DNA of 64,000 bases from Chamaelirium japonicum. Its lineage: Eukaryota > Streptophyta > Magnoliopsida > Liliales > Melanthiaceae. The translations under genes and the position numbers were made by a program. Of this stretch, positions 30,408 to 64,000 are shown in pieces (the first letter of the stretch is position 1; every line of letters starts with the position of its first letter). Location: the NCBI GenBank assembly GCA_947650365.1, contig OX393557.1:5308464-5372463 (forward strand). The letters are read 5' to 3'. Under the pieces are notes generated by a model that made no database searches, was not told where the DNA came from, and was given only the letters and a program-made list of their open reading frames with translations.

Positions 30408-33400
30408 TTAGGCATAGTACCTTTTGAGGTATTTGCCGTTGATAGGGCCGAGTGTCAGCCCTTCTGGTGTAGTGAGGAGATAGACGTCGTTGGAGTAGAC
30501 TTCCTTGACGGAGTGCGGGCCATCCCATTTGGCATCAAATTTCTTCCCTCCTCGATGCGAGAGGATGATGGGGCGTTTGACTGCCAGCACCAGTTCCCCT
30601 ATCTGGAATGATCGAGGATGGATCTTCTTGTTGAAGGCGCGAGAGAGCCTGGCCTGGTAACACTCCAGACGTTGTTGAGCTTCGAGGTGTCTTTCATCCA
30701 ATGCTTCCAATTCTGCCAGGCGGAGCTGGGCGTTGTCGTCACTGGTGAGGCCTTCCTGGACTGCTATCCTGAGTGATGGGATCTGGAGCTCGAGTGGAAG
30801 AACAGCTTCTACACCATAGACGAGGGAGTATGGTGTTGCTTGCGTTGGCTTGCAGAAGGATGTCCGGTAAGCCCATAGTGCTTCGCCCATGCGTTCGTGC
30901 CAATCTTTCTTTGTCTTCGAGACGGTTTTCTCCAACAGCTTGCACAGGGTCTTGTTGAAGGCTTCTGCCAGCCCGTTGGCCGGAGCGTTGTACATCGTCG
31001 AACAATTCTGCTTAATGTTGTACAATGCGCAGAATTGGCTGACGGCAGCATTCTTGAATTGCTTCCCATTATCTATTACGATATAGCGGGGGACTCCATA
31101 GCGGAAGATAATGTCATTCTGGATAAAACTGATGACGGAGTGCTTTGTAACTTCCCGCAGAGGCGTTGCTTCAGCCCACTTGGAGAAGTAGTCCATTGCC
31201 GCCAAAATATAGAGATGTTGCTTGGATGACTTGGGCAGGGGACCGACGATATCGAGTCCCCACCCGTCGAAGGGCCAAGACTCGATTGTTGGGTGCAAAG
31301 GCTCCGGAGGTTGACGGATGTAGTCCCCGTGCATCTGGCAAGCTTAACATCTCCTCGCGTACTCCAAGCTGTCCTTGATCATGGTAGGCCAGTAGTATCC
31401 CATCCTCCTGACGCGGAAGTAAAGTTTCGGACCGGACTGGTGCGATCTGCAGATTCCAGCGTGTACTTCTTCCAGTGCGGCTTCTGCTTCTTCTTTCGCG
31501 AGGCACCTCAGGAGTGTGCCATCGTAGCTTCGACGGTACAGCTCGCCGTTGAAGTGGTAGAACCTTAGAGATCGTCGACGGATGTCACCTTTGCGCTTCG
31601 GATCTTCGGGGAGTTTACCATGAACGAGATAATCCACAAAAGGCTGCCTCCAGTCTTGTTCTTTAATCTCGAGGACGTGCACCGCGTTGGCTTGAACTGG
31701 GATTTCGAGCGGACCTTCTTCTTCGGTAATCACGAATCTTCTGCAGACGGGGACGACGAGTGAACGTTCATCTGGAAACGGGAGTGTAGCCGCCAGATTT
31801 GCGAGTGCGTCAGCTTGCTGGTTGAGGTTCCTGGAGACGTGCTAAATGGAAGCAGCCTTGAGTTTACCGAGGAGCTCCACAGCCTGCGCATGCAACGGCA
31901 CCAGGTCTTCTTTGTTGACTTCGTATGCCCCCAGGACTTGCTGGATCACGAGTTGGGAGTCTCCAAAAATCTCTAGTCCTTGAAGCTTCATTTCGTCGGC
32001 CAGCTCGAGACCGATGAACAAGGCTTGATATTCTGCCACATTGTTGGAACATGATTCCGACAGTAGGAATGAGAAGGAGAGTATTTTGTTGTCCGGAGTG
32101 ACGAAGATGACTCTGACTCCCGCTATGTCTTGCCTTGCTGCGCCGTCGAAGAACATTTTCCAGGATGGGGCGACGTCGACGGAGAACACTTCTTCATTTG
32201 GGAGATCTTCTGACAACTCCCATTCCGTCGGGAGAGGGTATTCTGCGAGGAAGTTCGCGAGGGCCTGCCCTTTAACCGCTTTCTATGGTACGAAGGTGAT
32301 ATCAAATTCAAGTAGCAGCAAGGCCCACTTGGCTAGATGTCCGAAAAGCACTGGTCTTGACATGATGTACTTGAGGGGGTCAGCCTTCGAGACGAGTCTG
32401 ATGGTGTGAGCCAGCATATAATGTCGCAGCTTTTTCGTGGCGAAAATGAGCGCTAAGCAGACCTTCTCGATTGGGGAGTAATTCAGCTCTGCGCCGACGA
32501 GAGTGCGACTCAAGTAGTAGCAAGCTGTCTCCATGCCAAGTTCATTGTTCTGAGCCAGGAGTGCCCCCAAGGATTGCTCCTGGGCAGCAATGTAGAGGAT
32601 GAGCAGTCTTTCTTGAACTGGTGCTGATAGAACTGGTGGCTTCAGTAGATATGCTTTGATGTTTTGGAGTGCCTCTTGGCAAGCTTCATCCCATTTGAAA
32701 GACGCTCCTTTCTTCATGAGGCGACTAAAAGGGTGACACCTTCCGGCCAGGTTGGCGATGAATCTTCGGATATACGCCAAGTGCCCTTGGAGGCCTCTGA
32801 GGTCTCGCACTGTCTTTGGTGCGGGCATATTGATAATAGCATCAATTTTGGACTGATCTATCTCAATGCCACGATATCGGACGACGAAACCGAGGAACTT
32901 GCCTGAGGAGACCCCGAACGCGCACTTGAGTGGATTCATGCGGAGTTGGTACCTTCGAAGCCATTTGAAGATTAGCTCGAGATCTTATAGATGTGCCGAC
33001 TTCTTCTTGGATTTCACCACGAGGTCATCGACATAACACTCCATATTTTGGTAAAGAATGTCGTCGAAGATTTTCTGCATAGCTCGCTGGTAGGTGGCTC
33101 CTGCGTTCTTCAAGCCGAATGGCATAACTTTGTAGCAGTAGATTCCTTTCAGTGTGCGGAATGCCGTGAGCTCCTCGTCCTTGGGTGCCACCCGAATCTG
33201 ATTGTAGCCTGATGATCCGTCCATGAAAGTTAGCACCTCGTGACCTGTCATCGCGTCCACCATTAGCTCCGTGATTGGCAAGGGAAAGTCGTCCTTTGGA
33301 CATGCGTTGTTCAAGTCTCTGAAGTCCACGCACACTCGGATTTGGCCGTTCTTCTTTTTGACTGGGACGACGCTAGAGATCCATGTCGGGTATTTGACCT

Positions 33401-34340
33401 CTCGGATGAAGCCGACCTCGATCAACTTATTGACTTCGCCTTCTATTTGGGGTACCAGTTCCGGCCGGTAGTGTCTTTGTCCTTGCTTGATAGCGTTGGC
33501 TCCGTGTTTGACGCTGAGCTGGTGTACTGCAATTTTGGGATCGAGGCCCGATATCTCCTTGTAGGACCATGCGAAGACGTCTCTGTATTCTTTAAGCAGT
33601 TTGATATATGCGGCTTCTTCCTCAGAGATCAAGAGTGTGCTGACGAATGTAGGTCGAGGCTCCGTTTCTGTGCCCAAGTTGATTTTCTTCAGGTCATCAA
33701 CGGTGGACTGCCCCCTTTCTTCGAGGACTGGTGGGGCGTCTGGCAACTCGTCGTCCGAAGTAGAAGTAGCACCGTGGTCGGGATCCGTGATGGAGATATG
33801 ATTGACGGCCGCCATGGGTGGGTGGGTGGGTGTTGAGACGAAGTCCTCGATTGGCATTCCCAGGCGATCGAACACTGACTTCTTCTTTGATTGCTTAACT
33901 GGCTCGAGCCTTTCGAACACGGATGTACGCTTTAGATTCGACTGGTTTCTACCACCTCTGATTTGCTTCTGGAGCAAGGCTTGGCATCGAGCTCGTCGTC
34001 GTCTTTTTCTGCTGTCGGGACGGCTTTCGTAAGCAGAGCGTGCATCGGAGATTGTTGATCCTTCAGCTAGTTCGTCTACCATCTTCACCCCGATGTAGTT
34101 GGAGGTGAAGGTCTTCTTCGCTGCGGTTCTGATGACCAACGGAGCTTGACTGGAGCCGATGCCTCGGCGGTTCGGGAGAATTTGTTCACCATTTTGAAAC
34201 AACCGAGCTTGAGTTCTCGTCATCCCATATGGAGTTGCTGCTGGGGGAAGTGTGCCCATGGCGCTTTCTCTGTCGTAACCGGCTTTGAACAGCAACTTAG
34301 CAGTATTTTGCCCCCAACTTCCTTTCGGCTTAAATGCAAG
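30408..34340 (-). pseudogene. Tat-type pol: RT, RNase H, integrase (stop-riddled)
   Basis: Right to left: RT at about 33560-32950 (FMDGSSGYNQI, MPFGLKNAGATYQRAM, catalytic YVDD at 33024-33035); the connected RT-linked RNase H region follows to 32283; a second, archaeal-type RNase H at 32216-31842 (MFFDGAARQ); integrase zinc region about 31470-31320; integrase core 31270-30800 (GLDIVGPLP, VIDNGKQF); C-terminal region to the TAA/TAG at 30408. All pieces are in the same frame as gag, with in-frame stops at 32985, 32283, 31842 and 31344 and one at 34341 upstream. No frameshift seen. It once encoded the replication and integration enzymes of the element. Confidence 0.9.
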
Positions 34341-34343
34341 CTA

Positions 34344-36140
34344 ATTGGGGTCGATTGATTCGGTAGGCCCGCTCGGGTTCGGAGCTCGCGTCAGACTAGG
34401 TAATGGCAATGTCATTTCTTGCAGGGTGATGACATTGGCCTGTGATAATGACGGGGCCAGCTTCCTTGTCGGAGTAGAAGGCGATCGCTCAGATTTACGG
34501 AGCCACTGAGGTGCGAGACGCAGGACTGGCGTCGCTTGGGCGGGCAACGGGGTATGTTGCACGGCTCTTGACTCGGGGCTGATGCGCATCCTTTGTCTAA
34601 ATTTCGGTGCTTCTTGGACCTCAAGTCTTGCTTTGTCAGAAGGTCGTACTGGATTTGCGGGAAGAGGAGTCTTATCCTGCTTCACTTCTTTAATTTTATG
34701 GACTCGAGGGGCTTTAGCTGGAAGAACTTCCGCGACTAGGCCCTTTGCTTGGTAGAACTTAGTGTCGGCCAAGTGTGCCTCGGCCTCGTTGAATGGCTTG
34801 TTGTCCGCAACTATGCACCTCTCTATGCCTTCTTCGTAGTACTTGAGGCACTGATGCCAAGTGGATACCACGATGCCATTCTCGTGCAGCCATGGTCTTC
34901 CTAACAGGAGGCAATATGACGTCTGGCAATCGATGATGTGGAAGAGGACCGTTGTATCTAGCGGGCCAATGGAAAGCTTTAAACGGATGATTCCGACGGT
35001 GGACTGTCCGCCCTGGTTGAACCCTTGAATGACCAACTGACTTGGCGAGAGCTGGTCGTTGGTGATGCCGAGTTGCCGCATTGTCTGGATAGACATGATG
35101 TTGATGGCGGAGCCACAGTCCAACATGGTTCGATTCACTGGCTTTTCCTTGATGTATCCCGAAACGTAGACAGGCCGGTTATGCAACCGTGTCCCGAGTT
35201 GTAAGTCCTCATCCGAAAAGGTTATCGTCGCATCACACGAGGCCACAGCTTTGCGCTTCTGGTCATCCTTCCTTTTTCTCTTGTAGCTGTCTGGGTCGGC
35301 CAAGGCCACAGCCATTGCCAGGCGAGCCTTCTTCGGGAGATGCAAAGCTTCCACGAGTGGCAAGTGCAGGATTGCTTCGTCATGAGAGGCAGTGCCCCCT
35401 TGGTCGAAATTGTCTTCCTCATCGGTGGAGTCGCCTTTTTCAGAAGTTTCGCTTTCGTTCTTTCCTTCCGACGCCTTATGAACTCCGACCATGCAACAAG
35501 ACACTCTGATGTGTTGGTCAACTGGGAGAAAGTGATCCGGGAAGAACTCTTGCAAGGTTGTCGGCTCTAGAAGGCTCTGCTGAAGGAGATCATCTCGGCT
35601 TGCTGGCAGCACTTTGAACACCTTCCTTCCTGGAGTCTTGCTTTTCTTCTTGTAGGTTTGGCGTTCTGGAAATCTCCTCATCACACGGTCCTGCTTCTGT
35701 TGCCTTTCTTGTCGTAGCTTTCGTCGCCGTGGTAGCATGACCCATACCTCCTCGTCGGTGGATTCCCCTCCGCTAAGATCATGATCGATAGCAGCAACTG
35801 GTTCCCTTGAAGGCACTTGTTCTTCCAGAGGCTCTACTGACTCGTCTTCCGATCCCCAACCGGTGGGCTTGATTTCTTCAGCTAAAACCGATGGAGGCTT
35901 TGAATAGAGGACGTAATAGTCGAACTTCCCCGAAGGCTGGCCCAGCAGACCGACTTCTGGATCTCCTTGCTTGTATCTTTCCCGAAGGGCGCGTTGGGAC
36001 GTGGCTTGACTGGAAGGGGTTTGCTCTTCTTGAAGCTCCACTGGCTCGTCTTTCGATCCCCAGCCGGTGGGCTTGATTTCGTCGATTGAAACGGACGGAG
36101 GCCTTGAGTAGAGGACGTAATAGTCAAATTTGCCCGAAGG
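34344..36140 (-). pseudogene. Tat-type protease region with linker duplication
   Basis: Same frame as gag and pol. The protease has the active-site motif LDCGSA (near 35110-35128) followed by the ILLGRPWL-like segment CLLLGRPWLHENG. Upstream of it is a highly charged linker with a 204-bp (68-codon) tandem duplication: the block containing GDPEVGLLG and SGKFDYYVLYS occurs at about 35830-36030 and again at about 36034-36230. One copy has a stop (36141) where the other has an intact codon, so the stop is secondary. Confidence 0.85.
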
Positions 36141-38222
36141 TTAGCCCAGCAGACCGACTTCTGGATCTCCTTGCTCGTATCTCCTTTGGAGCGCTCGTTG
36201 GGATGCAGCATTGCTTGGAAGAGGTGCTGGCGTGAGTGATGGTTGCCCCCAGGGCAACGGTGCTTCTTCCTCGGTGAGCGCAGGAGTACATTGACGTCGC
36301 TTCGAGACTTTTGGCTGAGAAATTGACTTAGCGGTTGGCGCTTGACGGTTGATGCGCAATTTGGGCATGCTTCGCCGAGCAGCAATGAGTACCGACGAGA
36401 AGGAGCCGAAGGTGATGGACGTCATATTGGCCATAGCAACCTCTCCGGAGTCGATCTCTATCTTCCCTTGCTTTATGAGCGCCATGATTCTTTCCTTGAA
36501 GACGAAGCATCTTTCGATGGGATGACTTACCACCCGGTGGTATTTGCAGAAGAGAGGGTCATCGACGCGATGCATCTGCTCGGGCCTCTTCGAAGGAGGG
36601 AGCTCTATCATCTTCTCTTGCAGCAGTTGGTCGAACATGGAGGAGACTTCCGAGTCTGGAAAGGGATACTCCTTAGCTTCGAGCTCCTCGAGAGTCATCC
36701 TTTGTCTTGGCGGCGGTATGGCGACTCCCTTCTTTTGATCCGGCTTGCCACCGATTTTGAGCGGTTTGGAGGTTGAAGCGACGTCCGCAACATTGACTTG
36801 TTTCGGTTTCAGTGCCGGTGGCTTGTCCTTCTTCTCCACCTTCAAGAAGTCTTTGTTCTTCGAGTCCCCACGGCTTGCTAGGCTGAGTTCCATGTCGTGA
36901 GCCCGAGTCGCGAGTTCTTCGAAAGACCAAGGTTTGATACCTTTGAGGATGTAGAGCAAGCCCCAGTGCATGCCTTGGGTGCACATCTCGATGGCCGAGT
37001 CTTCAGACAAGCGGTCTCATGAATTCAGCACGAGGTTCCTCCATCTGTCGATGTAGTCGATCACCGGCTCGTCCTTCCTTTGCTTGACTGCAGTAAGCTC
37101 GGTCATACTGACAGTTTGTCTAGTGCTGTAGAAGCGATTGAGGAACTCCCTCTCCATCTGATCCCAGCTGTCGATGGTCCCTGGAGGAAGATCAATGTAC
37201 CAGTCGAACGTGTTGCCTTTGAGGGTGCGAACGAATTGCTTCACCATCTCGTCACCATATGTGCCGGCATTATTGCAGGTCTCGATGAAGTGGGCGACGT
37301 GCTATCTTGGATTTCCCTTTCCGTCGAAGTGTTGGAACTTTGGTGGCTGGAATCCGACTGGGAAGCGTAGATGCTGGATCCTCGCAGTGTAGGGCTTCGA
37401 GTATGCCGCCGTGATTGGAGGAAGGCCACTGTCGTGGGAACGCATCATGTCGGCTATCAACGCTTGGACTTGCTGAGCATTCATCGTTGCTGTTGCCGGA
37501 GGTTGTGTGGCCACCGAGGCTGGCGCTGGGGAGATGACTTCCACTGGGACGGGAGCCGAGGAGAGCGATGGAGTAACTGCTTGAATCGTCGGAACAACCT
37601 CTGCAGGAGCAGAAGTTGAAGACGGAACTGGAGCGGCTACTGGAGAAGCGACGGGTTGGCCGATTGCTGCAGCGTCCTTTGCGCTTAGCTTTTGGAGCAG
37701 AGTGTTGATGTGACGATCCTTCTCCTCCATTAGCCGAGTAATTTGCACCATATGTTCGCTCATCTGCATGACTTGGAGCTGAAGAGCGGACGGAGGATGG
37801 TGACGGAGAACGTCTCGGTGTTGTATGTTCGCGTCCTCGCCGTTATCATCGGAGACGTAGTTACGCCGACTTGCTTCTGGCTGATGATTGATGTTTGCCC
37901 CCTACAGAGGAGGTGCAACGTCCGCTGGAGAACCCGAACGGGCCCGGGGCTGGGGCTGGTCCTCCCCAAACTTCTGGACATGGACTCCAGGATCGAGGCT
38001 CGTTTCTTCATGCACCAGGGCCTCGTCGGCGCTTTGGCGAGCATCTTCGGCAGTAGCTTCTGGCACAAAGACGTCCGCAAGAGTCCGAGTACGCCGAGTG
38101 TAGACGCGTACCATCGGGGGAGGATCACCCTCCAGATTTACTGGATCACCGTGTCGGAGTAGAGGAGACTCGGCGATTGGTGAGAGGCTTGGAGGAAACG
38201 CATCGTTGTTTGTTCCGGCCAT
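36141..38222 (-). pseudogene. Tat-type gag
   Basis: Starts at the ATG 38222 (protein begins MAGTNNDAF), about 50 bp downstream of the primer site. The gag core is around 37320-36830 (LKGNTFDWYIDLPPGTIDSW, then EREFLNRFYS). In-frame stops at 37902 (TAG), 37302 (TAG), 37017 (TGA) and 36141 (TAA) break it, all without a change of frame. The zinc-knuckle region is not evident, as in many Tat gag proteins. It would have formed the particle shell. Confidence 0.88.
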
Positions 38223-49978: not shown

Positions 49979-52900
49979 TGTAACGTCTTGTATTTTTGGT
50001 AATTAGAAAATAAATATTTTATTTAGAAAATGACCTTTTTGGCCCTTATTAACTAATGTTTTCTTCCATGTTGAATTGCGGAGGAATTACACGTAAACAT
50101 ATTATAAACTCCATGTCCACTTAATCCATTTTTTCGAGAGCTTTACGATGACACCTTATGCGCATCGATCCAACATGTATGAAAAGTTATGATGTTAGGA
50201 CGATTAGTCATTTTCTAGTACGGTCGAGCGGGCGATCAAAACATAGCAAATCTTATATGGTTGTGTTCGTCTCGACGAGACCTTTATAAATGATATTTTT
50301 GGAGAATTTTCTGACGCCCGTTTGGAGTATTGTAGCCCAATATCCATTTTTATCATTTTAGACATGTTGATTGACCAAGTAGTTGACACCTAGTCAAACC
50401 TATTCCATTAGGCCCGCGCCGACAAGACCAATCCAATAACAATTCCTGTGCTGGAATCGAATCTACGGATTGTGAGATATTGTCGATTCTTTTCTTCGGG
50501 TTGTTTCGATAATCGATTCGGGGGACGCAGGACTTGGGCCCAACCGAATCGGAACAGACAGTGAGCCCAACAGAAGCCCATGGCAGCCCACTTCATCCCA
50601 CCCTCTCTTTATATTCAAATTAAAATTTGAGATGGGTTAGAAAGGATTTTAAACCATTTTCTCCCCTTATATATCCTGCTATAACCGTCTAAATAGATTG
50701 TCCATGACCCTTCCGTGATTTCGGCCGTAACCCTTGTCCTATTAGATTTACTTTTGATATTTTTGTTTTGGGGTTTTCCAACGGGTTTTGACCAAGTCCT
50801 TTGGTCAGTTGTGAGTTGGCTATTTTGGTGGCCACCTTCTCATAGCTGATACTCTATGGGGGAGCAAAAACTAGAGAAGAGAGTTTTTGAGAGGAGCTTT
50901 TGGGTTTTGGGGGAAAAAAAGAAAAAGCAAAACAGTACCCTTCTTCTTCTCCATCTTTAATTTTCTTGGATATTCTCCATCTTTCGAAGGGTAAAAAAGG
51001 GTGGTTCGAGAACTCGTCTTTATGCACAAGACGGCGAGTTGTGTGGTCGTCGTATCTTGAAAAAAAATTGTCAGATTTTTCTGTGCAAAGAGGACGAATT
51101 TCCTTTACGAAAAACGTTTTTAACGTGCTTCGACCGTCAAGTAAAATTTCTCTAACCCTTCTTTCTTGATCTCTCTTTCTACAGAGTTCTTTTAGTAGTG
51201 GAAGATATTGGATCAAGAAATTTGCAAGTCGGGTATGTTTAGTTTGCAAATGTGTAAAATCTGAATATTTATTAGATATTTTACCATTGGTCTTATTGAA
51301 ATATGTTGAACTAATCATAGGTTCTCAATTTTTTGACAACAATCATAAAGGAAATTCCTTTGTTAATATGATTAGTTTAATTTTAATCATGAATATCATC
51401 CTAATATATTTATTTTTCGGGAATAAGTATATACATCGATTAGCAATTGAAATTTTTCAAGTTATATTGAATACTCTCATATCTAACATCTACTTCGATT
51501 TTTTTATATGCAATGAAAATTGAGTTTTGATGATTTATGCCGTGGCTTATATTCTTGTTATTTGCTTTCAGTAGTTATACTCAAAAATGGCCACTGAGAA
51601 ATCAGTTGTTCATTCCTCGAATCCAACACCTGAACGTTTCGGTGGGCAGAATTTCAAATGCTGGCAAGCACGTATGAAATTCTGGCGTACCACGTTAGGC
51701 CTTTTCTCGATAATCAATAATTTCCCCATTTCTAACGCTGAGGAAGAACCTGGTCACATTGCTGCTTTTGAACTTAGGAAGGAGAGGGATTTTCTCTGTC
51801 ACGTCCGTATTTATAGCCATTTGGAAGACCAACTTTTTGACATCTACCATCCAATTCCTTCTGCCCATGACCTATGGTATGCCTTGGATAAAAAGTACAG
51901 CACCGAAGATGCTGGACTTGAGAAGTATTATGTGGACAAATACCACGACTTCAAAATGGTAAAAAACAAATATGTAGTTGACTAGAACACCAACTTTTAG
52001 TCCATGAGCTTAACTAAACAGATATCCCTATCCATGAAAAATTTATTATAGGCGTCATTATAGAAAAGCTACCTAAATCTTGAAAAAACTATGATCTTTC
52101 CCTGAAACATAAGAAAGAACCAATTTCCCTAGATAACCTTCTTATGTTCCTTCAGATAAAAGAGAAAGCCCGAGAAAGAGATCATATCTCTGAGGGGCAG
52201 ACTTCTGAGTTTCATGCTAAAGCTAATATGTTGGTAGGTCAAAATCCCAAATTCAATAAGAAAATCTTTCAGAAGAAACCAGTAAACCTTAAACCTATTC
52301 CTAAGGTTAAAAAGGACAAGAGCAAAATTGAGTGCTATATGTACCATAAAATTGGGCACTATACTAAAGAGTGCTACCAGAACAAGATTAGGAGAAAAAA
52401 ATCAGTTAATGAGGGCCAGGTGAATATGGTGATTGTAGGTGACTCCACTTCAGGAGGAGGGTATATTTCTTGTCATTCTCAAGTTCATATTATCTACCAA
52501 CCAGAGAAATGGTGGGTGGATACTAGTGCAAATGTATATGTTTGTGCTGATTGGTCTGCATTCATGTCGTATTAAGAATCTGATGACAACGTGACCATGG
52601 GGAATACTACCGCTGCATGGGTGCTTTGACAAGGACGAGTAGACTTGAAGTTGACTTTAGAGAAGGGCCTTCAGCTATATCATGTGCATCATGTACCAGA
52701 GCTTTACAAGAACTTGATTAGTGGGTCCCGTCTAGTACAAGACGGCTACAAGTTAATGTTTGAATCTAATAAAGTAGTCTTGTCTAAGTTTAGTACTTTT
52801 ATAGGCTTGGGATATGTATGTGTTGGCATTTTCAAACTATCTATTTTTTAAAATTTGAATTTGAATAAAAGTGTATATTTGTTTCATCAAATGTTGATAA

Positions 52901-53891
52901 TTCTACTATATGACATGCTAGATTATAACATATTAATATTGACACTCTGAAACGTATGATGAATGATAGTTTAATTCCTTCTTCTAGCATAGATTATAAA
53001 GACAAATGTCAGATTTGTGTACGGGCTAAGTAAGCTCATAAATCTTTTTCTTCTGTTGAACGTAATTCTAGCTTGTTAGAGTTAATCTATAGTGATCTCT
53101 GTGAGTTCAATAATGTTCTTACCCGTGAGAGAAAAAAATATTTTATTTACTTCATCGATGAATTTTTAAAATTCTGCTATGTTTATCGTATTAAGACCAA
53201 GGATGAGGCTTTGGATATGTTTACTACCTATAAAGCTGAGGTTAATAATCAACAAGGGAAAATGATTAAAATCCTTAGATCGAATCGTATGGAGGAATTT
53301 ACTGCTGCGTATATGTCATAATTTTGTGAACAACATGAGATTATCTATGAAGTCACAACGATCTTTTTTCTCCCCAGTCCAATGGGGTAGCAGAAATGAA
53401 GAATAGAACTTTTAAGGACATGGTAAATTCCATATTGAGTAGTTCGAGTATACCCTATAACTTGTGGGCGGAGGCGTTGTTGTCAGTATATCATATCCTT
53501 AATCAGATTCCATTTAAGGATAATGACAAGACTTCCTATGAGTTATGGAAAGGTTGAAAACCTAGCCTCAAACACTTTAAAGTATGGGGGGTGCTTGGCT
53601 ATTGTGGTCGTACTAATGAATAAGAAGCGAAAATTAGGTCCCTAGTTCGTTGACTGTCTCTTTTTAAGATATGCACATAGTAGTGCAGCTTTTAGATTTC
53701 TGGTCGTCAGATCCGAGGTGAGTGATATTGCTGAAAACTCTATTATGAAGTCTAGCGATGCCAAATTTTTTGAGAATGTGTTTCCATTCAATAATAGGCA
53801 TAGTAGATCTATAGTTTATTCTTCTAACATTCCTTTTTCTAGTGGGTCTGTACCAGTGGCAGTAGAATCGGTTGAACCTAGAAGGAGTATC
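49979..53891 (+). mobile_element. Second Ty1/Copia element, 5' part, truncated
   Basis: The probable 5' LTR starts TGTAACGTC at 49979 and contains a TATA box (CTTATATATCC, 50666-50676). A leader and a gag-pol relic follow on the plus strand. It is interrupted at 53891 by the second Tat element, so its RT, RNase H and 3' LTR are outside the window. The LTR/leader border is uncertain (about 51200). Confidence 0.75.
51587..53640 (+). pseudogene. Copia gag, protease and integrase relic
   Basis: Gag begins MATEKSVVHSSNPTPERFGG and contains CWQARMKFW (51587-51985). The zinc-knuckle region is CYMYHKIGHYTKEC (about 52336-52377). The protease active site is WWVDTSANVYV, with Ser where Gly is usual. 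Integrase spans about 53000-53640 (CQICVRAK, IYSDLCEF, then QSNGVAEMKNRTFKD). At least two frame changes and several stops make it dead. The reading segments are AT-rich, unlike the GC-rich Gypsy DNA around. Confidence 0.85.
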
Positions 53892-54287
53892 TGTGGGGGA
53901 AAATCTTCGTGCCGACCCGAAGACCTTCGCAGCACCAGTCAATTGGAGTCGAAGTTAATGTCGAAGATCGTTGGTCGATCGGTTGGTTGAAGTTGTTGCT
54001 TTTTTTGATATGTAAACAGAAAAGCAATCAGAGAGAGAGAGATTTTGACACAAGAGAAGTGATCTCGGAGTTCAGCCGAAGCCTACGTCTCCGTGCTATA
54101 GGGAGCAACCCGAATTCACTAACACTTATGTTGAAGTGACCTCGACAGGCCGAGTATCACTGAAAGCTCCCTGATCTCTTCGAAAGAGAGAAGAAGATCG
54201 AAGAGAGATGGTAGATCAGAAGTTGAAAATCCCAGAGTTCTGGTTTTTAGAACTGAGAATTCGATCCATTTACATTCAAAGGCTATG

Positions 54288-54297
54288 CTATTTATAG
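54288..54297 (-). promoter_or_regulatory. TATA box in the Tat LTR
   Basis: CTATAAATAG on the minus strand, in the sense direction of the element. In the 5' copy this would drive the polyprotein transcript. Confidence 0.6.
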
Positions 54298-54357
54298 GCA
54301 TTCTGGGTGGCGAATGGCGGTTTCTGCTGCAGTATCTGGGGATCCTCCAGGTAAAGT

Positions 54358-54640
54358 TGCGGGCCCTGCGGTTGTCTTCGGGGGTCCACCAGGCAGGGCT
54401 GGTGGGTCCCGCTGTAGTCCTCGTGGGCCCACCAGGCAGGGTTGGTGGGTCCCGCTGTAGCCCTCGTGGGCCCACTAGGCAGGGCCGGTGGGTCCCGTGG
54501 TAGTCTTAGTGGGCCCACTAGGCAGGGCCGGTGGGTCCCGTGGTAGTCTTCGTGGGGCCACCAGGCAGGGCCGGTGGGTCCCATGGTAGTCTTCGTGGGC
54601 CCACCAGGCAGGGCCGGTGGGTCCCGTGGTAGATTTATAC
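54358..54640. repeat. 43-bp tandem array in the LTR
   Basis: GGTGGGTCCC recurs at 54401, 54444, 54487, 54530, 54573 and 54616, a period of exactly 43. Copies differ mainly in CTGTAG versus GTGGTAG. Confidence 0.92.
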
Positions 54641-54657
54641 CAAAATTTGCACCCACA

Positions 54658-54672
54658 GTTACCCCCTCCAAG
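54658..54672 (-). promoter_or_regulatory. Polypurine tract of the second Tat element
   Basis: The minus strand reads CTTGGAGGGGGTAAC directly before the 3' LTR. Confidence 0.85.
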
Positions 54673-54779
54673 TTAGCTAGGGTGCATTCTGGCTGGCTTG
54701 GACTTGGTGCAAAAAATAGCAACTTCCTGTTTTGAAAAACGGACACGAAGAAACTTGTCGCATGTTAGAGAAAAAAGTG

Positions 54780-55085
54780 ACTGATCGGTCAATTTGGACC
54801 GATCGGTCAAATTTGACCGATCGGTCAAATTTTGACCGATCGGTCAAATTTTGACCGATCGGTCAAAATTCAACCGGTCAAGAATCGGGTGATCGGTCAA
54901 AAAACAGGGTTTTTTAACCGATCCAGTAGTAATTTTGACCGATCAGCTGAAATTTGACCGATCGGTTAAATTTTGACCGATCGGTCACTTTTGACCGATC
55001 GGTCAAATTTTGACCGATCGGGCAAAATTCAACCGGTCAAGAATCGGGTGATCGGTCAAAAAACAGGGTTTTTTGACCGATCCAG
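54780..55085. repeat. Dense GACCGATCGGTCAAA palindromes
   Basis: Copies of TTTGACCGATCGGTCAAA spaced about 17-20 bp (54781-54870), repeated in a second block (54930-55030). A roughly 160-180-bp higher-order unit ends in CAACCGGTCAAGAATCGGGTG. It grades into the 118-bp array. Confidence 0.88.
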
Positions 55086-56460
55086 TAGAAATTTGACCGA
55101 TCAGATAACTTTCGCCGATCGGACATGTTTGTCCGATCGGTGAAAAATATCCGGTCAAGGTTCGAGTGATCGGCAAAAAACCTTAGTTTTTTGCCAGATC
55201 CAGTAGAAATTTGACCGATCAGATAACTTTCGCCGATCGGACAGGTTTGTCCGATCGGTGAAAAATATCCGGTCAAGGTTCGAGTGATCGGTAAAAAACC
55301 TTGGTTTTTTGCCAGATCCAGTAGAAATTTGAATATCCGGTCAAGGTTCGAGCGATCGGCAAAAAACCTTGGTTTTTTGCCAGATCCAGTAGAAATTTGA
55401 CCGATCAGATAACTTTCGCCGATCGGACATGTTTGTCCGATCGGTGAAAAATATCCGGTCAAGGTTCGAGCGATCGGCAAAAAACCTTGGTTTTTTGCCA
55501 GATCCAGTAGAAATTTGACCGATCAGATAACTTTCGCCGATCGGACATGTTTGTCCGATCGGTGAAAAATATCCGGTCAAGGTTCGAGCGATCGGCAAAA
55601 AACCTTGGTTTTTTGCCAGATCCAGTAGAAATTTGACCGATCAGATAACTTTCGCCGATCGGACATGTTTGTCCGATCGGTGAAAAATATCCGGTCAAGG
55701 TTCGAGCGATCGGCAAAAAACCTTGGTTTTTTGCCAGATCCAGTAGAAATTTGACCGATCAGATAACTTTCGCCGATCGGACATGTTTGTCCGATCGGTG
55801 AAAAATATCCGGTCAAGGTTCGAGCGATCGGCAAAAAACCTTGGTTTTTTGCCAGATCCAGTAGAAATTTGACCGATCAGATAACTTTCGCCGATCGGAC
55901 ATGTTTGTCCGATCGGTGAAAAATATCCGGTCAAGGTTCGAATGATCGGCAAAAAACCTTGGTTTTTTGCTAGATCCAGTAGAAATTTGACCGATCAGAT
56001 AACTTTCGCCGATCGGACATGTTTGTCCGATCGGTGAAAAATATCCGGTCAAGGTTCGAGCGATCGGCAAAAAACCTTGGTTTTTTGCCAGATCCAGTAG
56101 AAATTTGACCGATCAGATAACTTTCGCCGATCGGACATGTTTGTCCGATCGGTGAAAAATATCCGGTCAAGGTTCGAGCGATCGGCAAAAAACCTTGGTT
56201 TTTTGCCAGATCCAGTAGAAATTTGACCGATCAGATAACTTTCGCCGATCGGACATGTTTGTCCGATCGGTGAAAAATATCCGGTCAAGGTTCGAGCGAT
56301 CGGCAAAAAACCTTGGTTTTTTGCCAGATCCAGTAGAAATTTGACCGATCAGATAACTTTCGCCGATCGGACATGTTTGTCTGATCGGTGAAAAATATCC
56401 GGTCAAGGTTCGAGCGATCGGCAAAAAACCTTGGTTTTTTGTCAGATCCAGTAGAAATTT
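55086..56460. repeat. 118-bp tandem array (about 11-12 copies)
   Basis: Monomer of 118 bp with CCGATCAGATAACTTTCGCC, the palindromic pair CCGATCGGACATG/TTGTCCGATCGG, ATATCCGGTCAAGG and CAAAAAACCTTGGTTTTTTG (itself an inverted repeat). Copies from about 55390 on are almost identical. One copy near 55326 has lost about 78 bp. 118 is not a multiple of three, so reading frames shift each unit and the array is not coding. It ends about 485 bp before the antisense gene's start codon. Confidence 0.95.
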
Positions 56461-56794
56461 ATAAAGATGAGTTGAAAGTTTTGAACCTGCCCTCAGAGAG
56501 GTTTCATAACTTTTCCTTTCTTCGATCTTCCGGAAGAGTTTTGATTGGAGTTTGATCTTTTCTGTTTTTGACTCTTTGGTTGGCTTGAACGCGGATTTGA
56601 ACCGGCGGTCCGGTTTATTTAGACCGGCGGCCCGCTTGGACCGTTGGTTCACGTGGACCGGTAGGTCCGACGTTTCGTCTGGTCCGACGGTTCGCCTGAT
56701 TTTGCGCTTGCTACGGATGGATGCCACGTGTACCTGCAAAAACACGCGATTTGATATGGTGAAGACACGTGTCTTCTCGATTTGCGTACCTGTT

Positions 56795-56865
56795 TTACCC
56801 TGGGTACAAAAGCTTTCACCGGCTGTTTTACCCTGGGTACAAAAGCTTTCACCGGCTGTCATTTT
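56795..56865. repeat. 33-bp tandem duplication upstream of the antisense gene
   Basis: TTTTACCCTGGGTACAAAAG plus 13 more bases is present twice in succession, just upstream of the chosen ATG. Each copy includes the palindrome GGGTAC/GTACCC half-site. Confidence 0.85.
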
Positions 56866-56944
56866 GCCTCACGCTTCCAAAATTTTTCGAAGTCCAGACT
56901 CTCTGCTCCCGATTTTCAGCTCTTGTTCTCGTTCGATCGGTCGA

Positions 56945-59690
56945 ATGGCTTCATCAGGCAGTTCGCAGAAGTCTGGTACGGTTCCTTCGAAGAGAAAGGG
57001 GAAGGAAATCGTCGAGGTTCAATCTCCTCCGAGGGGCCGTGGCAAAGGCAAGGCTGCTCTCGCTGAACTTGGCCAACTGGGCAAGAGGCACCAAGGGGTA
57101 GGTTTTGCCTCAGCGCCATCAAGGCCAGAATTCATCCCCAAAGTGAAGTTTGTTCTGGGTCCGCTTATGCCCCTGACAGACGAGACGGAGTATATGTACA
57201 ATGTTGGTGGTGAGTTCACAGATACGAAGAGAAAGAAGTGGCAAGCACTTCTCTCTTACTTCACTGAAGGGAAGGGAGCGCAGCCTTCACTCCCTAGCAT
57301 CCAGACGGCTTTCGGCATCGACAAGAAGACCGTCTTCACCAATTTTGCCAGCAACGAGAAGGTCATGGGAACCATCGTGACCATCGGCCAAATGAACTGC
57401 GGCCTACGTCTGCCTCTGCCACCCTTTGCTGCAAGACTACTGAATACATCTGGCCTTTGCCCGGGGCAAGTCACAGGGAATGCCTGGCGAATCATCTATG
57501 CGTTCTGCCGGGTGGAATCAGATTTTCAAGAGGACTTGAGGGCTTGTTACTCCAGTATCCCGGAAGGTGAACTTGCCAGGATTGAGCTCGGATACTTCTT
57601 CTTTCATTATCGATGGAATTACAGGAAGGACAGCCCTTTCTATAATCTGACTGGAGTATCTCCCCTGCGCCCGCTCACCGATACAGTCCCTTCGGACAAG
57701 TTGTACACGGACTGGCCTATTTCTGTATCTGGCGCCTGGACGTCCATGTCAGTGCCCGACACCCCCCGAGACAGCGTGCACGAGGCGGTGAAAATGTACA
57801 GCGCTGGAGGCATCTTCGCCTGGAATTCTGAGAGGGCGGGAGCCATAGATAACTTGTTCCTCGAGCTAACCTGTGGAACCAGGTCGTGGAAACAGTTTTC
57901 TAACTGTCCTGTGAGATATGGCAAGGCCAATCTCCTCCACAGATCAAAAGACAGGTATAAGGACAACGAAGTCCTATATTCTGACTATGAAGAGGATCCC
58001 AACTCGGGCAAGGTCATCCGGAAGGTTCGGACCGAGAAGAAAATCTACACTGCGAGGCGCCGGTTACCTACCATGGACGAGAAACTGGTGCTCCAAAGAG
58101 GCCCAGTGAAGAAGAAGCGAAAAACTCTTGTCAAGCCTAAGGAAGATGAAGACCAAGACAAGAAGAATGAAGATGAAGAAGAAGAAAAGAAGAATGAAGA
58201 AGAAGAAACTGAGAATGCCAGCCACGACAACAGTGGCAATGGCGAAGATGAGGACGGGGACGGCGAGGACGATCCGTCTTCTACCCCCTCCAGTGGGGAT
58301 GATGAGAATGGGGGTGGTGAGGAAGAAATTCCTCCCACCCCCACTGGTGGTGCAACGGGGGAGGACTCGATCCCTATTCCCATTGACGAGGTTAAAGCCC
58401 GTCAGATGGAGGAAATTCTCGACACAGAAGGCGACGGCAAAAAGGTGGTTCCCACCTACAAATTTGACGAATTGAAGAGGCCGATGCGCCTGAAAATAAA
58501 GCTGTCGAGGAGTGGTGGGGTTGGAAGCAACCCCACACCCCTCGATCAGATTCCCCCCGACGTTCCTCGCATTGAGGGAGCAACAATGAGTGGGGGTGTA
58601 GAGGTTGAGCAACCCCCTCCCCCCTCTCACTCTCTGCTCAACGAGGTGGAGGCCATGCTGGCCGGGCTCATCCAGCCAGGCGGGTCGCAAGAAGAGAGAG
58701 CCTCACCTCCCAGGAATGCTTCCCCCCCTGCTAATTTGGAGAGGGGAAGTCGAGTGGGCGATGGGGCTCCTCAACCTCAACCAGCGCCAACCCCGATTCA
58801 GGAGAAATCGACTCCTAAGAGTGGCTCTGATCGTCGGAAGGGCAAAGAGCCGAGGGTCGAAACATCAGGTAATTGAACTTAACTTGCTTTGAATGTCTTG
58901 TCTCTGAAGTTCGAAAATAATCTAACACTTTGATTCCCTTTGATTGCAGGTGCGCCTGCTGGATTGACTCCAACAATAAGGAGCTTGGGTGACGTTGATA
59001 TCAACCGCCCCACTGCTGCGATCAGAAAACTCATCAACCTTCTGAGTGCCACTTTGGATGAAGCTTTCGATAGAATTAACCTGTTGGTAGGTGCATCTGC
59101 TTGATCGATCATTTGAATCGTATCTTTCTTCAGAATAATTCAACTCTTTTGTTCTTTTGCAGAACTCAGCACTTATGAATGTTGCAACCAAACTCTCTTT
59201 GAGGGCGGGAGCAAAAGAAGCTGTAGCTGAAATAAATCAATTGACCGCGGAGAGAGATGAGCTGAGAGAGCTCCTGACTTCGAAGAAAGCCTCTCTCAAA
59301 TCCAAGATTGAGGAACTTCGCAAGGGAAGGCTGGAGATCAAGGGGCTGAAGGATCGGTGTGAGGCACAGAGTCACGAGCTCGAATCCCTGAAGACTCGAC
59401 TCTCCAGGGTTGAGGACGTGTCCTGTGGCCGCACCATTGAGATTCAAGAGCTGAAGCAACAACTTGCAACTCAGCACGCTGCCTTCACTGCCAGAGAGGA
59501 GACTTCCAAGAAGGCAATGGAGCATGCGCTGTCAGAGTGCAAGGTTTACAAGGAAACTGCAGAGAAGGCAGCAGAAGCGCTCAGGACTCATGTAGCTAGC
59601 GTCCGATCCTCCAAGGCATCAGTGGCGAGTAAAGCTCGTCCTGGATCTGAAGGGGAGAAGTCGCATGCGAAGAGTGTGGCCAAGCCCTGA
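56945..59690 (+). CDS. Antisense extra gene of Tat element, spliced, 862 aa
   Basis: Three exons inferred: 56945-58868, 58950-59086, 59163-59690, with donors GGTAATTG and GGTAGGTG and acceptors TTGCAG. They join in frame to 862 residues without a stop. Start chosen at the ATG in CGAATGGCTT (good plant context); the frame is open upstream to 56552. Residues about 145-235 (CGLRLPLPPF, then GNAWRIIYAFCRV) resemble the Pfam 'putative gypsy type transposon' domain. A basic patch KKKRKTL near 388 could be a nuclear localisation signal, followed by an acidic Glu/Asp-rich stretch (about 395-460) and a Pro-rich region. Residues 688-862 form a probable coiled coil. Function unknown; extra antisense frames are documented in Tat-lineage elements. 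It runs tail-to-tail with pol. Not a host gene, in my view, as it sits inside the element. Confidence 0.78.
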
Positions 59691-60327
59691 GACTTTTCTT
59701 CTTCTTTGTTGTTGTACTTGTAAATTTTTGAAATGTAACAGCTCCTTGTATCTGACATATTTTGATGATAATAGAAGTTGGTATTTGAAACTTGCACTTC
59801 TTTTGAGTTGAATGTCTTTGAATGTTGAGTTCTGGAATGCTATTTGACATGATTGAGTATTCATAAATTTGAACATAATTTGAATACGCATATACTTGAA
59901 TGTAAGGGGTTGAGTCGCTACTCAATCACCCAAACTTGTAACTTTGAAAATTGAAAATTGAATTTGAATTCGAATAACATTTGAATGTAAGGGGTCGAGT
60001 CGCAACTCAGACTCCCAAACCTGTTAGACGATATCGAATTGATTGAAATTGGATATTGAATTTCGAAGGTCAGTTTAACATTCGTTAGTAAGGGGTCGAG
60101 TCGCAACTCTAACACCCAAACATGTTAAGACCTGGTAACTTGAAAATGGTCAGTTTTTAACATTTGCTAGTAAGGGGTTGGGTCGCAACCCTAACACCCA
60201 AACTTGTTAAAAGACCTGGTAATTTGAATATGGATAACTTGAAACTGCTTCAGAACTTGGATTGAAAATCAGAACACTTGTACACTTGAACATTTGAAAG
60301 AGAGCTTTATTCATCACAGAATTTACA
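59691..60327. repeat. Spacer with about four 84-100-bp repeats
   Basis: TAAGGGGTTGAGTCGC-type blocks followed by CTCAACACCCAAACTTGTTA-type blocks recur near 59900, 59985, 60085 and 60168. This is the convergent 3' zone between the antisense gene and pol. Each block can pair internally (GAGTCGCAACTC), so it may act in transcript ending. That is inference. Confidence 0.65.
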
Positions 60328-63300
60328 TTATGGATAGAACAACTTGAGGTGTCTAGAATTCCAAGCTCGAGGCAATCTATCTCCTTCTGGTGTGATCAGT
60401 CTGTAAGAACCTTTGCCTCCAACTGACTCAATGATATATGGACCTTCCCAGTTGGGAGCAAGCTTTCCACTGCTGTGCTCTTTGGTATTGTAGAAAACTG
60501 CTCTGAGAACTAAACTACCCACTGGGAACTGTCTCTTGTGGACTTTCTTGTCATAGGCTCTTTTGATCTTCTGTTGATATTTGGCCACACGAAGTGATGC
60601 TAGATCTCGTAGTTCTTCAGAGAAGTCTAGATCATTGATCCAAAGTTCTTCATTGACTCCTTCTTCAACAGCTTTGGTCTTCAAAGTACTAGATATATTT
60701 TCTGTTGGGAGTATTGCTTCTGATCCATATGTTAGACGGAAGGGTGAGAACCCTGTTGATCTTCTCGGAGTTGTGCGATACCCCCAAAGAACTTCGGGTA
60801 GGACTTGCTCCCACAATCCTTTCTTGTCGTTGAGTTTCTTCTTGAGTATATCAAGTATAGATCTGTTTGAGGCTTCAGCTTGACCATTGCATTGAGGATA
60901 TCTTGGAGTTGAATAGAATAACTTGATACCGTTGTTCAGACAGAACTCTCGGAATTTGTCTGAGTCAAATTGAGCTCCATTGTCAGCAACAAGAACTTGA
61001 GGTGTGCCAAATCTTGAGAAGATGTTGTGCCGAATGAATTTGATCACTTCGTCGTCAGTCTCTCGAAAGAGGGGCACAGCTTCAACCCATTTGGTGAAGT
61101 AATCAGTAGCCAGCAGTAGATATTTCTTCTTGCTTGGAGTTGGAGGGAAAGGACCCAAGAAATCTAACCCCCATTGATGGAAAGGCCAAGGACTTGATAA
61201 TTGATGAAGTTCATCTGCAGGGAGATGGATAGCTCGAGCGTGTCGTTGGCAAGGCTCGCATCTTTGAACGACTTGTTGAGCATCCTTTGCCATTGTTGGC
61301 CAGTAGTACCCTTGTAGCTTCGTCTTGGCTTCAAGAGATCTTCCTCCTGAATGATTTCCACAAGCTCCAGAGTGGATATCAATCAGGATTGCTTGTGCTT
61401 GTTCAGGACCAAGGCACTTGAGTAACATCCCGCTGTGAGATTTGAAATATAAATCTTCACCTTGTAAAGTGTAGCATGGGAGCTTCCTTTGAAGCCTTCG
61501 GGCTTGATTTGGATCTTCTGGTATTTTGTCATGTTTGAAGAAGTCGAAAATTGGTCTTCTCCAGTTTTCAAGCTGATTTCCACCCCCAGATCCTTTTGTA
61601 GTAGTAAGAATCTATTGATCGGGGATGGTCTTGGGCACTTCTTGATAATCGATCTGTATTTGCCTTCCTCCGAGTGAGTCTCCAAGAACTGAGGCGGCAT
61701 TAGCTAAGGCATCTGCTTCTCGGTTCTCTACTCTGGGGATTTGAATGAATTCAGCGCTAGTAAAACGTTGTTGAAGACGTCGTACTAAGGCCAAGTAGAG
61801 TTGCATTCTTTCTTCTCGAGCTGTGTACTCTCTATTGATTTGCCTTATGATCAGTTGGGAGTCGCTGTATATGATGATCCGATCTACCCCCAGAGATTCT
61901 GCCATTTCGAGTCCGGAAATGAGTGCTTCATATTCAGCTTCGTTGTTGGTTGCATTAAACCCAAGGAGAGTGGCCTTCTGGAGATGATCGAGTTCGGGGG
62001 ATATTAAGACTATCCCAGTTCCCGAACCGATCGAACTTGATGCTCCATCAGTATAAAGCTTCCATGGAGGAGTTGCAGAAATAACTTCAAGACTTGGATC
62101 AATTTTTGTTGCAGGATTGATCGGAGGAGTATCCTCATCTTCCAAGCGCATGTCGACATCCTCTTCCCAAGTGATGGGGTCTTCAACTGGAAAGTCAGCT
62201 AGAAAATCAGCAATTGCTTGACCTTTGATAGAAGTGCGAGATTCGAATTGAATCCCCAGAGCACTCATTTCGATCACCCATTTGGTCATTCGACCAGCTC
62301 GACCAGCTTTGTCAATGATATCTTTGAGTGAGTGTTCTGAAATGACAGTAATCTGGTGGGAGACGAAGTACGGTTGAAGACGACGCGAAGCAGTGAGCAA
62401 GGCCAAGATGACCTTCTCAGTTTTTGAGTAGCGAGTCTCAGCCGGAAGGAGAGTGTGGCTGATGTAGTAGACTGGATGTTCGATGCCTTCTCTTCTACTG
62501 ACTAAGACCGCGCTGATTGCTTGATCGGTCACGGCAAGGTAGAGCCACAAGTCTTCTTTTGGAAGTGGAGCAGTCAGGATAGGAGCTTGCACCAGATATT
62601 TCTTGATACTTTGAAATGCTTCTTCACAGGTTGGACTCCAACCGGAGGTATCCGCCTTTCGTAGTTTGTTAAAAAGTGGCTTGCACTTGTCTGAGGACTT
62701 TGAGATGAATCGATTGAGTGCTGCTAACCTTCCAGTGAGACGTTGAACTTCTTTTCGATTTGTAGGTGAAGGCATATCGATGATGGCTCGAATTTGATCA
62801 GGATTGGCTTCAATACCTCTCCTGGTCACAAGATGACCCAGGAATTTGCCAGATTGAACTCCGAAGGCGCACTTGGCTGGATTGAGCTTCATTCGATACT
62901 TTCGAAGGACTTGGAAGGTTTCAGCTAGATCAGATAGATGCTTCCCTCTAGTGAAGCTCTTGGTAAGGAGATCATCTACATAGACTTCGACATTGCGACC
63001 GATCTGATCTTCGAACATTTTGGTGACTAGCCTTTGATAGGTGGAACCAGCATTTTTGAGGCCGAATGGCATGACATTGTAGCAATAAAGGCCTCGGCTA
63101 GTCACAAAACATGTCTTCTCTTGATCATCAGCGTGGAGTGGAATTTGATTGTATCCGGAATACCCATCCATGAAAGACAATAGCTCGTGGCCAGCAGTGG
63201 CGTCAACGAGTCTATCTATCCTTGGCATGGGAAAAGGATCTTTGGGGCAAGCCTTGTTGAGATTGGTAAAGTCGATGCAGACTCTGACTTTCCCATTCTT

Positions 63301-63963
63301 TTTTGGAACAGCCACTATATTAGAGATCCAAGTTGGATACTCTACTTCTCGGATGAATCCGGCTGCGAGTAGCTTGGTAATTTCTTCTTGAACAGCAATT
63401 TGCAGCTCTGGTCGAATGGTGCGAGGCTTTTGCTTGACGGGCTTCACCTCTTCTTTGATCGCAAGTCGGTGACAAGCGTCATCTGGATTGATCCCAGGCA
63501 TGTCTTCGAAGCACCATGCGAAGACGTCGATATTGGACTGGAGGAAGGATACCATGTCTTGCGCTTCTGCGTCGCTAAGACCGGTACCAATAAATGTTTG
63601 TTGAGGGAGATCTCCGCTGCCTATGTTGATCGGGATGATTTCTTCAATTGAAGGTGATACTTCCCATTCGATTGGCGGAGGTTCGGTCAGCGGAATCTCC
63701 TTTGATTGCTATTTAGAAGAGGGACCAGCTTCATCTCGTGGCCGCTTTGGAGGAGCAATATTGATCTTTCGATCTGTTTTAGCAGCAGCAGCTTCACAAG
63801 ATCTTCCAGCTTGCTGATCGCCTCGAATGCAGACGATGCCTTCTCCAGTTGCAAACTTGAGTAGTTGATGGTAAGAGGAGGAGATGGCATTGATCTGATG
63901 GAGGAATGGTCGCCCAAGAATGGCGTTGTAGCTAGACATTCCTTCGACGATTGCAAACCTCAC
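60328..63963 (-). pseudogene. Tat-type pol with two amber stops, continues off window
   Basis: One continuous frame from before 63963 to the stop at 60328. The protease C-terminal part is at the edge (AILGRPFLHQINAIS). RT has FMDGYSGYNQI, MPFGLKNAGSTYQRL and YVDD at 62971-62982. The RT-linked RNase H follows, then a second RNase H (LYTDGASSS, near 62050; YSDSQLIIRQI). The integrase zinc region is about 61360-61240 and its core about 61180-60750 (GLDFLGPFPP, VADNGAQF). Only two stops interrupt it, both TAG, at 63709-63711 and 61612-61614, with no frameshift. It is much less decayed than the Tat element at 25-38 kb. Confidence 0.9.
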
Positions 63964-64000
63964 CGAGACTCGAGTCTCTCGGCTGAGGTCGATAGTAAAT

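Follow-up and report, generated by a model that had tools for sequence, protein, structure and literature searches.

In the genome of Chamaelirium japonicum, a long open frame is found inside an LTR retrotransposon, on the strand opposite to its pol gene. The question that this locus raises is whether such a frame is a genuine gene and, if so, what its product does for the element that carries it. The window analysed here is the whole stretch of 64,000 nucleotides (contig OX393557.1, positions 5,308,464 to 5,372,463 of the forward strand), in which a preliminary description, made from the letters alone, had placed an intact, spliced gene running tail-to-tail with pol. All coordinates are those of the window.

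The host element and its antisense gene

The element is, as judged from its domain order, the length of its regions and its LTRs, a young Retand-type (Tat) Ty3/gypsy LTR retrotransposon inserted on the minus strand (Table 1), and the antisense gene sits between its pol gene and its 3' LTR. Its two LTRs are 99.6% identical, with 3 differences in 769 aligned positions. With 1.3e-8 substitutions per site per year, such a divergence dates the insertion to about 0.15 million years ago. Both ends of the element are flanked by the 5-bp target-site duplication GTATC, and a TGGCGCC motif is found 3 nt past the 5' LTR, where a primer-binding site would be expected. The domain order (gag, protease, RT, RNase H, additional RNase H, integrase) is that of the Tat clade. 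The additional RNase H (RVT_3, residues 563-672) comes after the RNase H of the RT and before the integrase ORF, as is the case in Retand elements. The region between pol and the 3' LTR (54659-60327) is 5.67 kb long and carries an antisense ORF, which is also a Retand trait, and the length of the LTR together with that of the target duplication fits the same group. Indeed, the accessible part of a survey of these elements (PMC11963269) gives 2.9-6.6 kb for this region and 315-1194 bp for the LTR, and 5 bp as the usual length of the target duplication in plants.

Table 1. Features of the element and of its antisense gene, in window numbering
Feature	Position	Strand	Description
3' LTR	53892..54658	-	767 bp, TG...CA
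Tandem array, on the 3' LTR side of the antisense gene	54778..56460		main unit 118 bp, 29 palindromic CCGATCGG dyads
Conserved block upstream of exon 1 (candidate promoter)	56645..56894	+	CACGTG boxes, TATA-like site
Exon 1, antisense gene	56945..58868	+	1924 nt; TRP28 (Transposase_28) region, KKKRK (residues 389-393), acidic stretch, proline/serine-rich stretch
Intron 1	58869..58949	+	81 nt, GT-AG
Exon 2	58950..59086	+	137 nt
Intron 2	59087..59162	+	76 nt, GT-AG
Exon 3	59163..59690	+	528 nt; coiled-coil-like C-terminus and stop codon
Four-unit array between the convergent genes	59895..60227		units around GGGGTTGAGTCGCAACTCAAGCACCC, can fold into a covarying hairpin
AATAAA	60306..60311	-	17 nt past the pol stop codon, sense strand; 17/20 copies
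Integrase end of pol	60328..61611	-	Pfam
RT, RNase H, additional RNase H (RVT_3) of pol	61612..63708	-	Pfam
End of gag-protease ORF	63709..64000, continuing to 66177 past the window	-	closed by TAG 63711-63709
5' LTR	66325..67091, outside the window	-	LTR alignment

Other repeats are found in the window. A direct repeat of 1.95 kb (5626-7577 and 13501-15452, 95% identity) looks like an LTR pair, and a second gypsy-type pol region lies on the minus strand at 30408-37901, in several open pieces. A degraded gag-pol remnant on the plus strand (51575-53900), presumably copia-like from the look of its protein, adjoins the element.

On recomputation, the three exons, their phases (1, then 0) and the 862-codon frame closed by a stop codon proved to be exactly those first described, and both introns have the canonical splice sites. 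These introns are AT-rich and of a size that is ordinary for plants, with a GC content of 33-36% versus 48-54% in the exons. The stop-free run reaches 788 codons, the longest obtained in 2000 dinucleotide shuffles being 321, while the exon 3 run of 183 codons was equalled in 11 of 2000 such shuffles. A period-3 signal is seen in exons 1, 2 and 3 (4.8, 10.7 and 5.7) and is absent both upstream of the ATG at 56945 and downstream of exon 3 (0.5-1.1). Further in-frame ATGs are found upstream, at 56717 and 56756; the ATG at 56945 is the likely start, because the coding period-3 begins there and is absent in the open stretch before it. A start at either of the upstream ATGs was rejected on the same ground and on the better conservation of the upstream block. 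Should intron 1 be retained, translation would end two codons into the intron and give a product without the coiled-coil-like tail.

The antisense frame had also been described as free of stops while the polyprotein of the same element has two. Both stops are present in the frame of pol (63709-63711 and 61612-61614), but they are not of the same kind. The second is private to the window copy (0/15 relatives). The first, which is located between protease and RT, is also found in all 15 relatives holding the place, and it is therefore not damage. It is set in a TAG CAA YYA context in 16/16 copies that hold the place (TAG CAA TCA in the window), and CAR-YYA is the type I leaky stop of tobamoviruses, according to the accessible part of PMC2754532. 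This conserved context suggests a programmed readthrough to make pol. The contrast between an intact antisense gene and a broken pol is thus weaker than it first appeared, since one of the two stops is of a conserved, recoding type.

Conservation, selection and exchange across copies

A Transposase_28 search of the window's own genome (1.52 Gb) gave 137 matches among the 150 scored of 5979 candidates. From these, 20 places (score ranks 1-20) were taken with their flanks as a divergent set, which became 19 once L017 was dropped as too partial; these copies were ranked by score, and the counts that follow are those of such a sample. The ATG and the TGA are kept in 19/19 copies, as is donor 2, and donor 1, acceptor 1 and acceptor 2 are kept in 18/19 each, so that all four splice dinucleotides are found together in 16/19. 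Exon 2 measures 137 nt in 18 copies and 136 nt in one, and the introns vary from 74 to 95 nt (intron 1) and from 70 to 77 nt (intron 2). The frame is open from start to stop in 8/20 copies, window included, the other 12 not being intact.

For the young family, a whole-gene search was used, in which all 40 scored places match end to end, these being the window and 39 others at 98%. We sampled 12 of the 39, spread evenly down the list, and added the window: 11/13 are open throughout (10/12 without the window) and 13/13 have both introns, with GT-AG ends. An 80-nt query spanning the exon 1/exon 2 junction (787 candidates) gave a contiguous, intronless match at none of the 40 scored places; both halves were found at 40/40, always separated by the intron. 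This is the outcome to be expected from the layout: reverse transcription would copy the RNA of the other strand, from which these introns could not be removed, and they would thus outlast it.

The gene is under purifying selection. In intact divergent pairs with unsaturated dS (0.21-0.50), dN/dS is 0.16, 0.17 and 0.18; silent sites are saturated in pairs with the window (pS 0.62-0.64), and very close pairs scatter between 0.20 and 0.75. When one common method was applied to 56 chosen pairs, the median dN/dS was 0.16 for exon 1 (50 usable pairs) and 0.19 for exon 3 (55), compared with 0.10 for the RT (37) and 0.11 for the integrase (55). In the young family, pN/pS amounts to 0.13 when the changes counted are those found in at least two copies, and to 0.20 for singletons. 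A comparison of dN/dS across copies had been proposed at the outset, and the values obtained are far below 1. From these comparisons, the purifying selection on the antisense gene corresponds to a dN/dS of about 0.16-0.19, that is, a constraint about half as strict as that on pol.

These results bear on two other readings of the frame. Long frames can arise opposite coding DNA, by chance or as the shadow of selection on the sense strand, but the strand opposite to this one has no long sense frame, the frame is far longer than in shuffles, its splice sites are kept across copies and its dN/dS is low; this reading is refuted, with virtually no probability left. It could also be imagined that the antisense transcript works mainly as an RNA that pairs with the sense RNA and feeds small-RNA silencing, the protein mattering little. 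The transcripts of two convergent genes could indeed overlap, an idea raised in the accessible text of PMC7264820. However, a dN/dS of 0.13-0.20 in several comparisons and exon lengths that keep the frame demand a protein, and the AATAAA conserved in 17/20 copies is predicted to be able to end part of the sense RNA before any overlap. We consider a mainly RNA function to be quite improbable. The first description of an intact, spliced gene lying tail-to-tail with pol is supported both by the gene model and by its conservation across copies, and on these sequence comparisons we regard the antisense gene as almost certainly real, selected and spliced.

The gene does not share the history of the element around it. 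When the window is compared with 14 copies, or 15 if the more distant L028 is counted, the candidate promoter, hairpin array, integrase and RT are 79-95% identical, and the antisense gene only 65-80%. In 14/14 window pairs, dS of the RT is 0.31-0.48, while pS of exon 1 is 0.59-0.72, which is near saturation. The order is reversed in the pair L009-L014 (RT 0.33, exon 1 0.13), and between the window and L014 exon 1 and exon 3 are discordant (2.08 versus 0.49). The existence of reversed cases argues for exchange rather than a faster mutation of this gene alone. Judged from these discordant distances, the antisense gene has its own history and is exchanged between families as a cassette, by recombination. 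To read the high identity of the upstream block as the effect of constraint alone was rejected as too simple, the antisense gene itself being the part that diverged.

Some of these elements have no pol. The RT match is absent in 4/19 copies (L011, L015, L022 and L024). Three of these (L011, L022 and L024) pass directly from about 60485 to 64493 (window numbering), with borders that are near-identical in all three. Past the jump, they hold part of gag through to an LTR; the gag frame stays open over about 573 residues in L011 and L022, and in L024 it is cut short by an early stop. The antisense gene is intact in these same three (3/4 of the copies without RT, L015 being the exception) and in 4/15 copies with RT. 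Non-autonomous Retand clusters that keep TRP28 are already known from the accessible part of PMC11963269. We gave up taking these intact genes as proof of selection within a pol-less lineage, the gene of the pol-less L024 being very close to that of the pol-bearing L009 (dS 0.045). Since genes are exchanged, their intactness testifies to the carriage of the gene by pol-less elements and is no proof of selection within them. Together with the cassette exchange, it nevertheless suggests a benefit that would be independent of the pol of the same copy.

Candidate promoter and repeat arrays

The block upstream of exon 1 is a candidate promoter. It contains CACGTG boxes at 56725 (19/20 copies) and 56766 (18/20), and a TATA-like TACAAAA at 56805 and 56838, doubled by a 33-bp duplication that is found in the window copy alone. 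TACAAAA is present in the window and in the 8/8 young copies read there, TATATAAG in 10/20 copies, and TATATA or TATAAG in 13/20, about 100 bp before the ATG. Across the alignment of 20 rows, the majority share averages 0.926 in the block, 0.881 in exon 1 and about 0.86 in the introns, which is a modest difference. To see a promoter in this block is the natural reading, and it agrees with the accessible account of gene23 of the maize element Grande (PMC7264820). Another candidate TATA box, TTTATAAAG, which immediately follows the tandem array at 56458, was rejected: conservation is higher in the block at 56645-56894, and period-3 starts only from 56945.

Two arrays border the gene. In the larger one, the 29 CCGATCGG dyads compare with an expectation of 0.02 on shuffling. 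Several other copies carry both dyad arms as CCGAACGG/CCGTTCGG, the two arms changing in step, which would fit a dimer site or a hairpin. The units of the smaller array were analysed for covariation on 32 of 40 distinct units (the 31-nt ones only, out of 78 units in total). One inner pair is never broken, occurring as AU, UA or GC, but the pair of columns 6-19 is unpaired in 17/32; the covariation score is 0.171, versus 0.090 in shuffles, some columns being fixed by the search pattern. These units may be an RNA signal or a DNA site. Rfam gave nothing at gathering level over 53800-64000, and a scan of the hairpin region for bacterial-type terminators found 0, its model not being informative for plant DNA. 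As for the AATAAA that follows pol, its position is such that it could end the gag-pol mRNA before the antisense gene.

The protein, its relatives and its probable role

The preliminary description had seen a gypsy-type-transposon-like domain in the protein and proposed a search against Transposase_28. In the window protein, the match to PF04195 occupies the first half of exon 1 and scores 21.6 bits, below the Pfam cut-off of 26.2. Of the relatives tested, 5/5 pass this cut-off, among them L051, whose domain shares 98% identity with that of the window. The KKKRK motif, which we take to resemble the nuclear signal of SV40, is found in 17/18 rows that reach the place, and the acidic stretch that follows it counts 31 D+E in 79 residues. 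Exon 3 matches only Pfam families of coiled-coil type, all below cut-off. AlphaFold gave no usable model, from the single sequence or with the 20 rows (pLDDT 31.6 and 30.6). Among solved structures, the best match was to TFIIS (E 0.063), the rest being worse, and homology to TFIIS was rejected, as this match covers the charged stretch only. No relatives of the antisense protein or of the integrase were found in viral contigs, bacterial genome contigs or plasmids.

The idea of a nuclear DNA- or chromatin-associated protein is only partly sustained by these data. A nuclear role is the likelier part, given the conservation of KKKRK and the nuclear location of GENE23 of Grande, which is transcribed from its own promoter (PMC7264820, in its accessible part); for binding to DNA or chromatin, AlphaFold and the structure search brought no support. 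From its sequence, the protein probably acts in the nucleus. That it would act directly on the DNA or chromatin of its own element is a possibility that we put forward tentatively. It could be imagined instead as a structural protein of the particle, an env-like or gag-like partner made from the antisense mRNA and packed with the RNA. The coiled-coil tail could assemble, and pol-less elements retain part of gag alongside the antisense gene. The conserved nuclear-type signal, however, speaks against such a protein, Pfam gives it no gag or env family match, and we find this alternative improbable.

The gene belongs to a known kind, and the likeness to antisense frames of other Tat and Retand elements that had been expected is borne out by TRP28, position and orientation. 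In the accessible text of the survey of Vicient (2025, PMC11963269), 97% of the Retand clusters carry an antisense Transposase_28 ORF, which has in common with the present gene its orientation, its place between pol and the 3' LTR, TRP28, the tandem arrays and the length of the region. By description, gene23 of Grande in maize, ORF4 of Retand in Silene and the antisense ORF of RIRE2 in rice are antisense genes of the same group (PMC7264820, accessible part). ORF2 of pvRetro in common bean (PMC4093653, accessible part) likewise lies antisense between the retrotransposase ORF and the 3' LTR and encodes proteins of 211-939 aa, some with an SMC-type domain. The differences lie in gene structure. 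The survey deals with single ORFs and the word "intron" does not occur in its accessible text, whereas three exons are found here; it counts 57 TRP28 and 11 Smc-type ORFs among 104 antisense ORFs, whereas TRP28 and a coiled-coil tail form one gene here. The pvRetro ORF2 are also single ORFs, "intron" and "splic" being absent from the accessible text, in contrast to our spliced model. A literature search of partial coverage found no described intron in an antisense Retand gene, and an earlier description is possible. What is new is the exon structure, as far as the literature was searched, the cassette exchange and the detail of the promoter.

The introns and the putative own promoter are host-gene-like, so that a recent capture of a host gene by a single element could be thought of. 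However, TRP28 is matched at 137 of the 150 scored places in this genome, and the accessible part of PMC11963269 reports it in nearly every Retand cluster, with nothing similar outside transposable elements. Such a capture, already disfavoured, is very improbable.

The best explanation, which we hold to be likely, is a spliced antisense TRP28 accessory gene that probably encodes a nuclear regulator of its own Retand-type element. An internal promoter would drive the antisense transcript, whose three exons would be spliced into an mRNA for the 862-residue protein, made of the TRP28 region, the nuclear-type signal, the acidic stretch and the coiled-coil-like tail. The introns would persist through retrotransposition, as it is the sense RNA that would be copied and antisense introns could not be removed from it. 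The protein would then enter the nucleus and regulate its element, by way of its transcription, the state of its chromatin or the steps of integration that take place in the nucleus, rather than serve in the particle. A comparable arrangement is known in HTLV-1, where the retro-element gene HBZ lies antisense, has a spliced mRNA and encodes a protein found in the nucleus (PMC1459196 and PMC3185765, accessible parts); no sequence relation is claimed, and HBZ starts in the 3' LTR while the candidate promoter here is internal.

A bolder proposal can be made by analogy with VANC of the VANDAL DNA transposons, an element-encoded anti-silencing protein whose targets are tandem repeats that differ between related elements (PMC5735166, accessible part). 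The element class is different and the likeness is in the idea only. The antisense protein would bind, in a sequence-specific way, to the palindromic array next to its own promoter, with its 29 CCGATCGG dyads, and would act there by anti-silencing or activation, keeping the element and its pol-less relatives transcribable; a coiled-coil protein could bind these dyads as a dimer. We consider this proposal unlikely. If true, it would mean that a VANC-like system arose independently in LTR retrotransposons, with a protein cassette swapped between families.

The antisense ORFs of Retand and Tat elements have, in the literature accessible to us, been catalogued for years as single ORFs with no role assigned. 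That the three-exon model is borne out in diverged copies implies that surveys of single ORFs may overlook such a gene or divide it, and the exact junctions (58868/58950 and 59086/59163) are now defined for RNA data. The purifying selection, the retention in pol-less elements and the exchange of the cassette imply that the protein does something that these elements need, and the many young intact copies present in one genome make this role testable.
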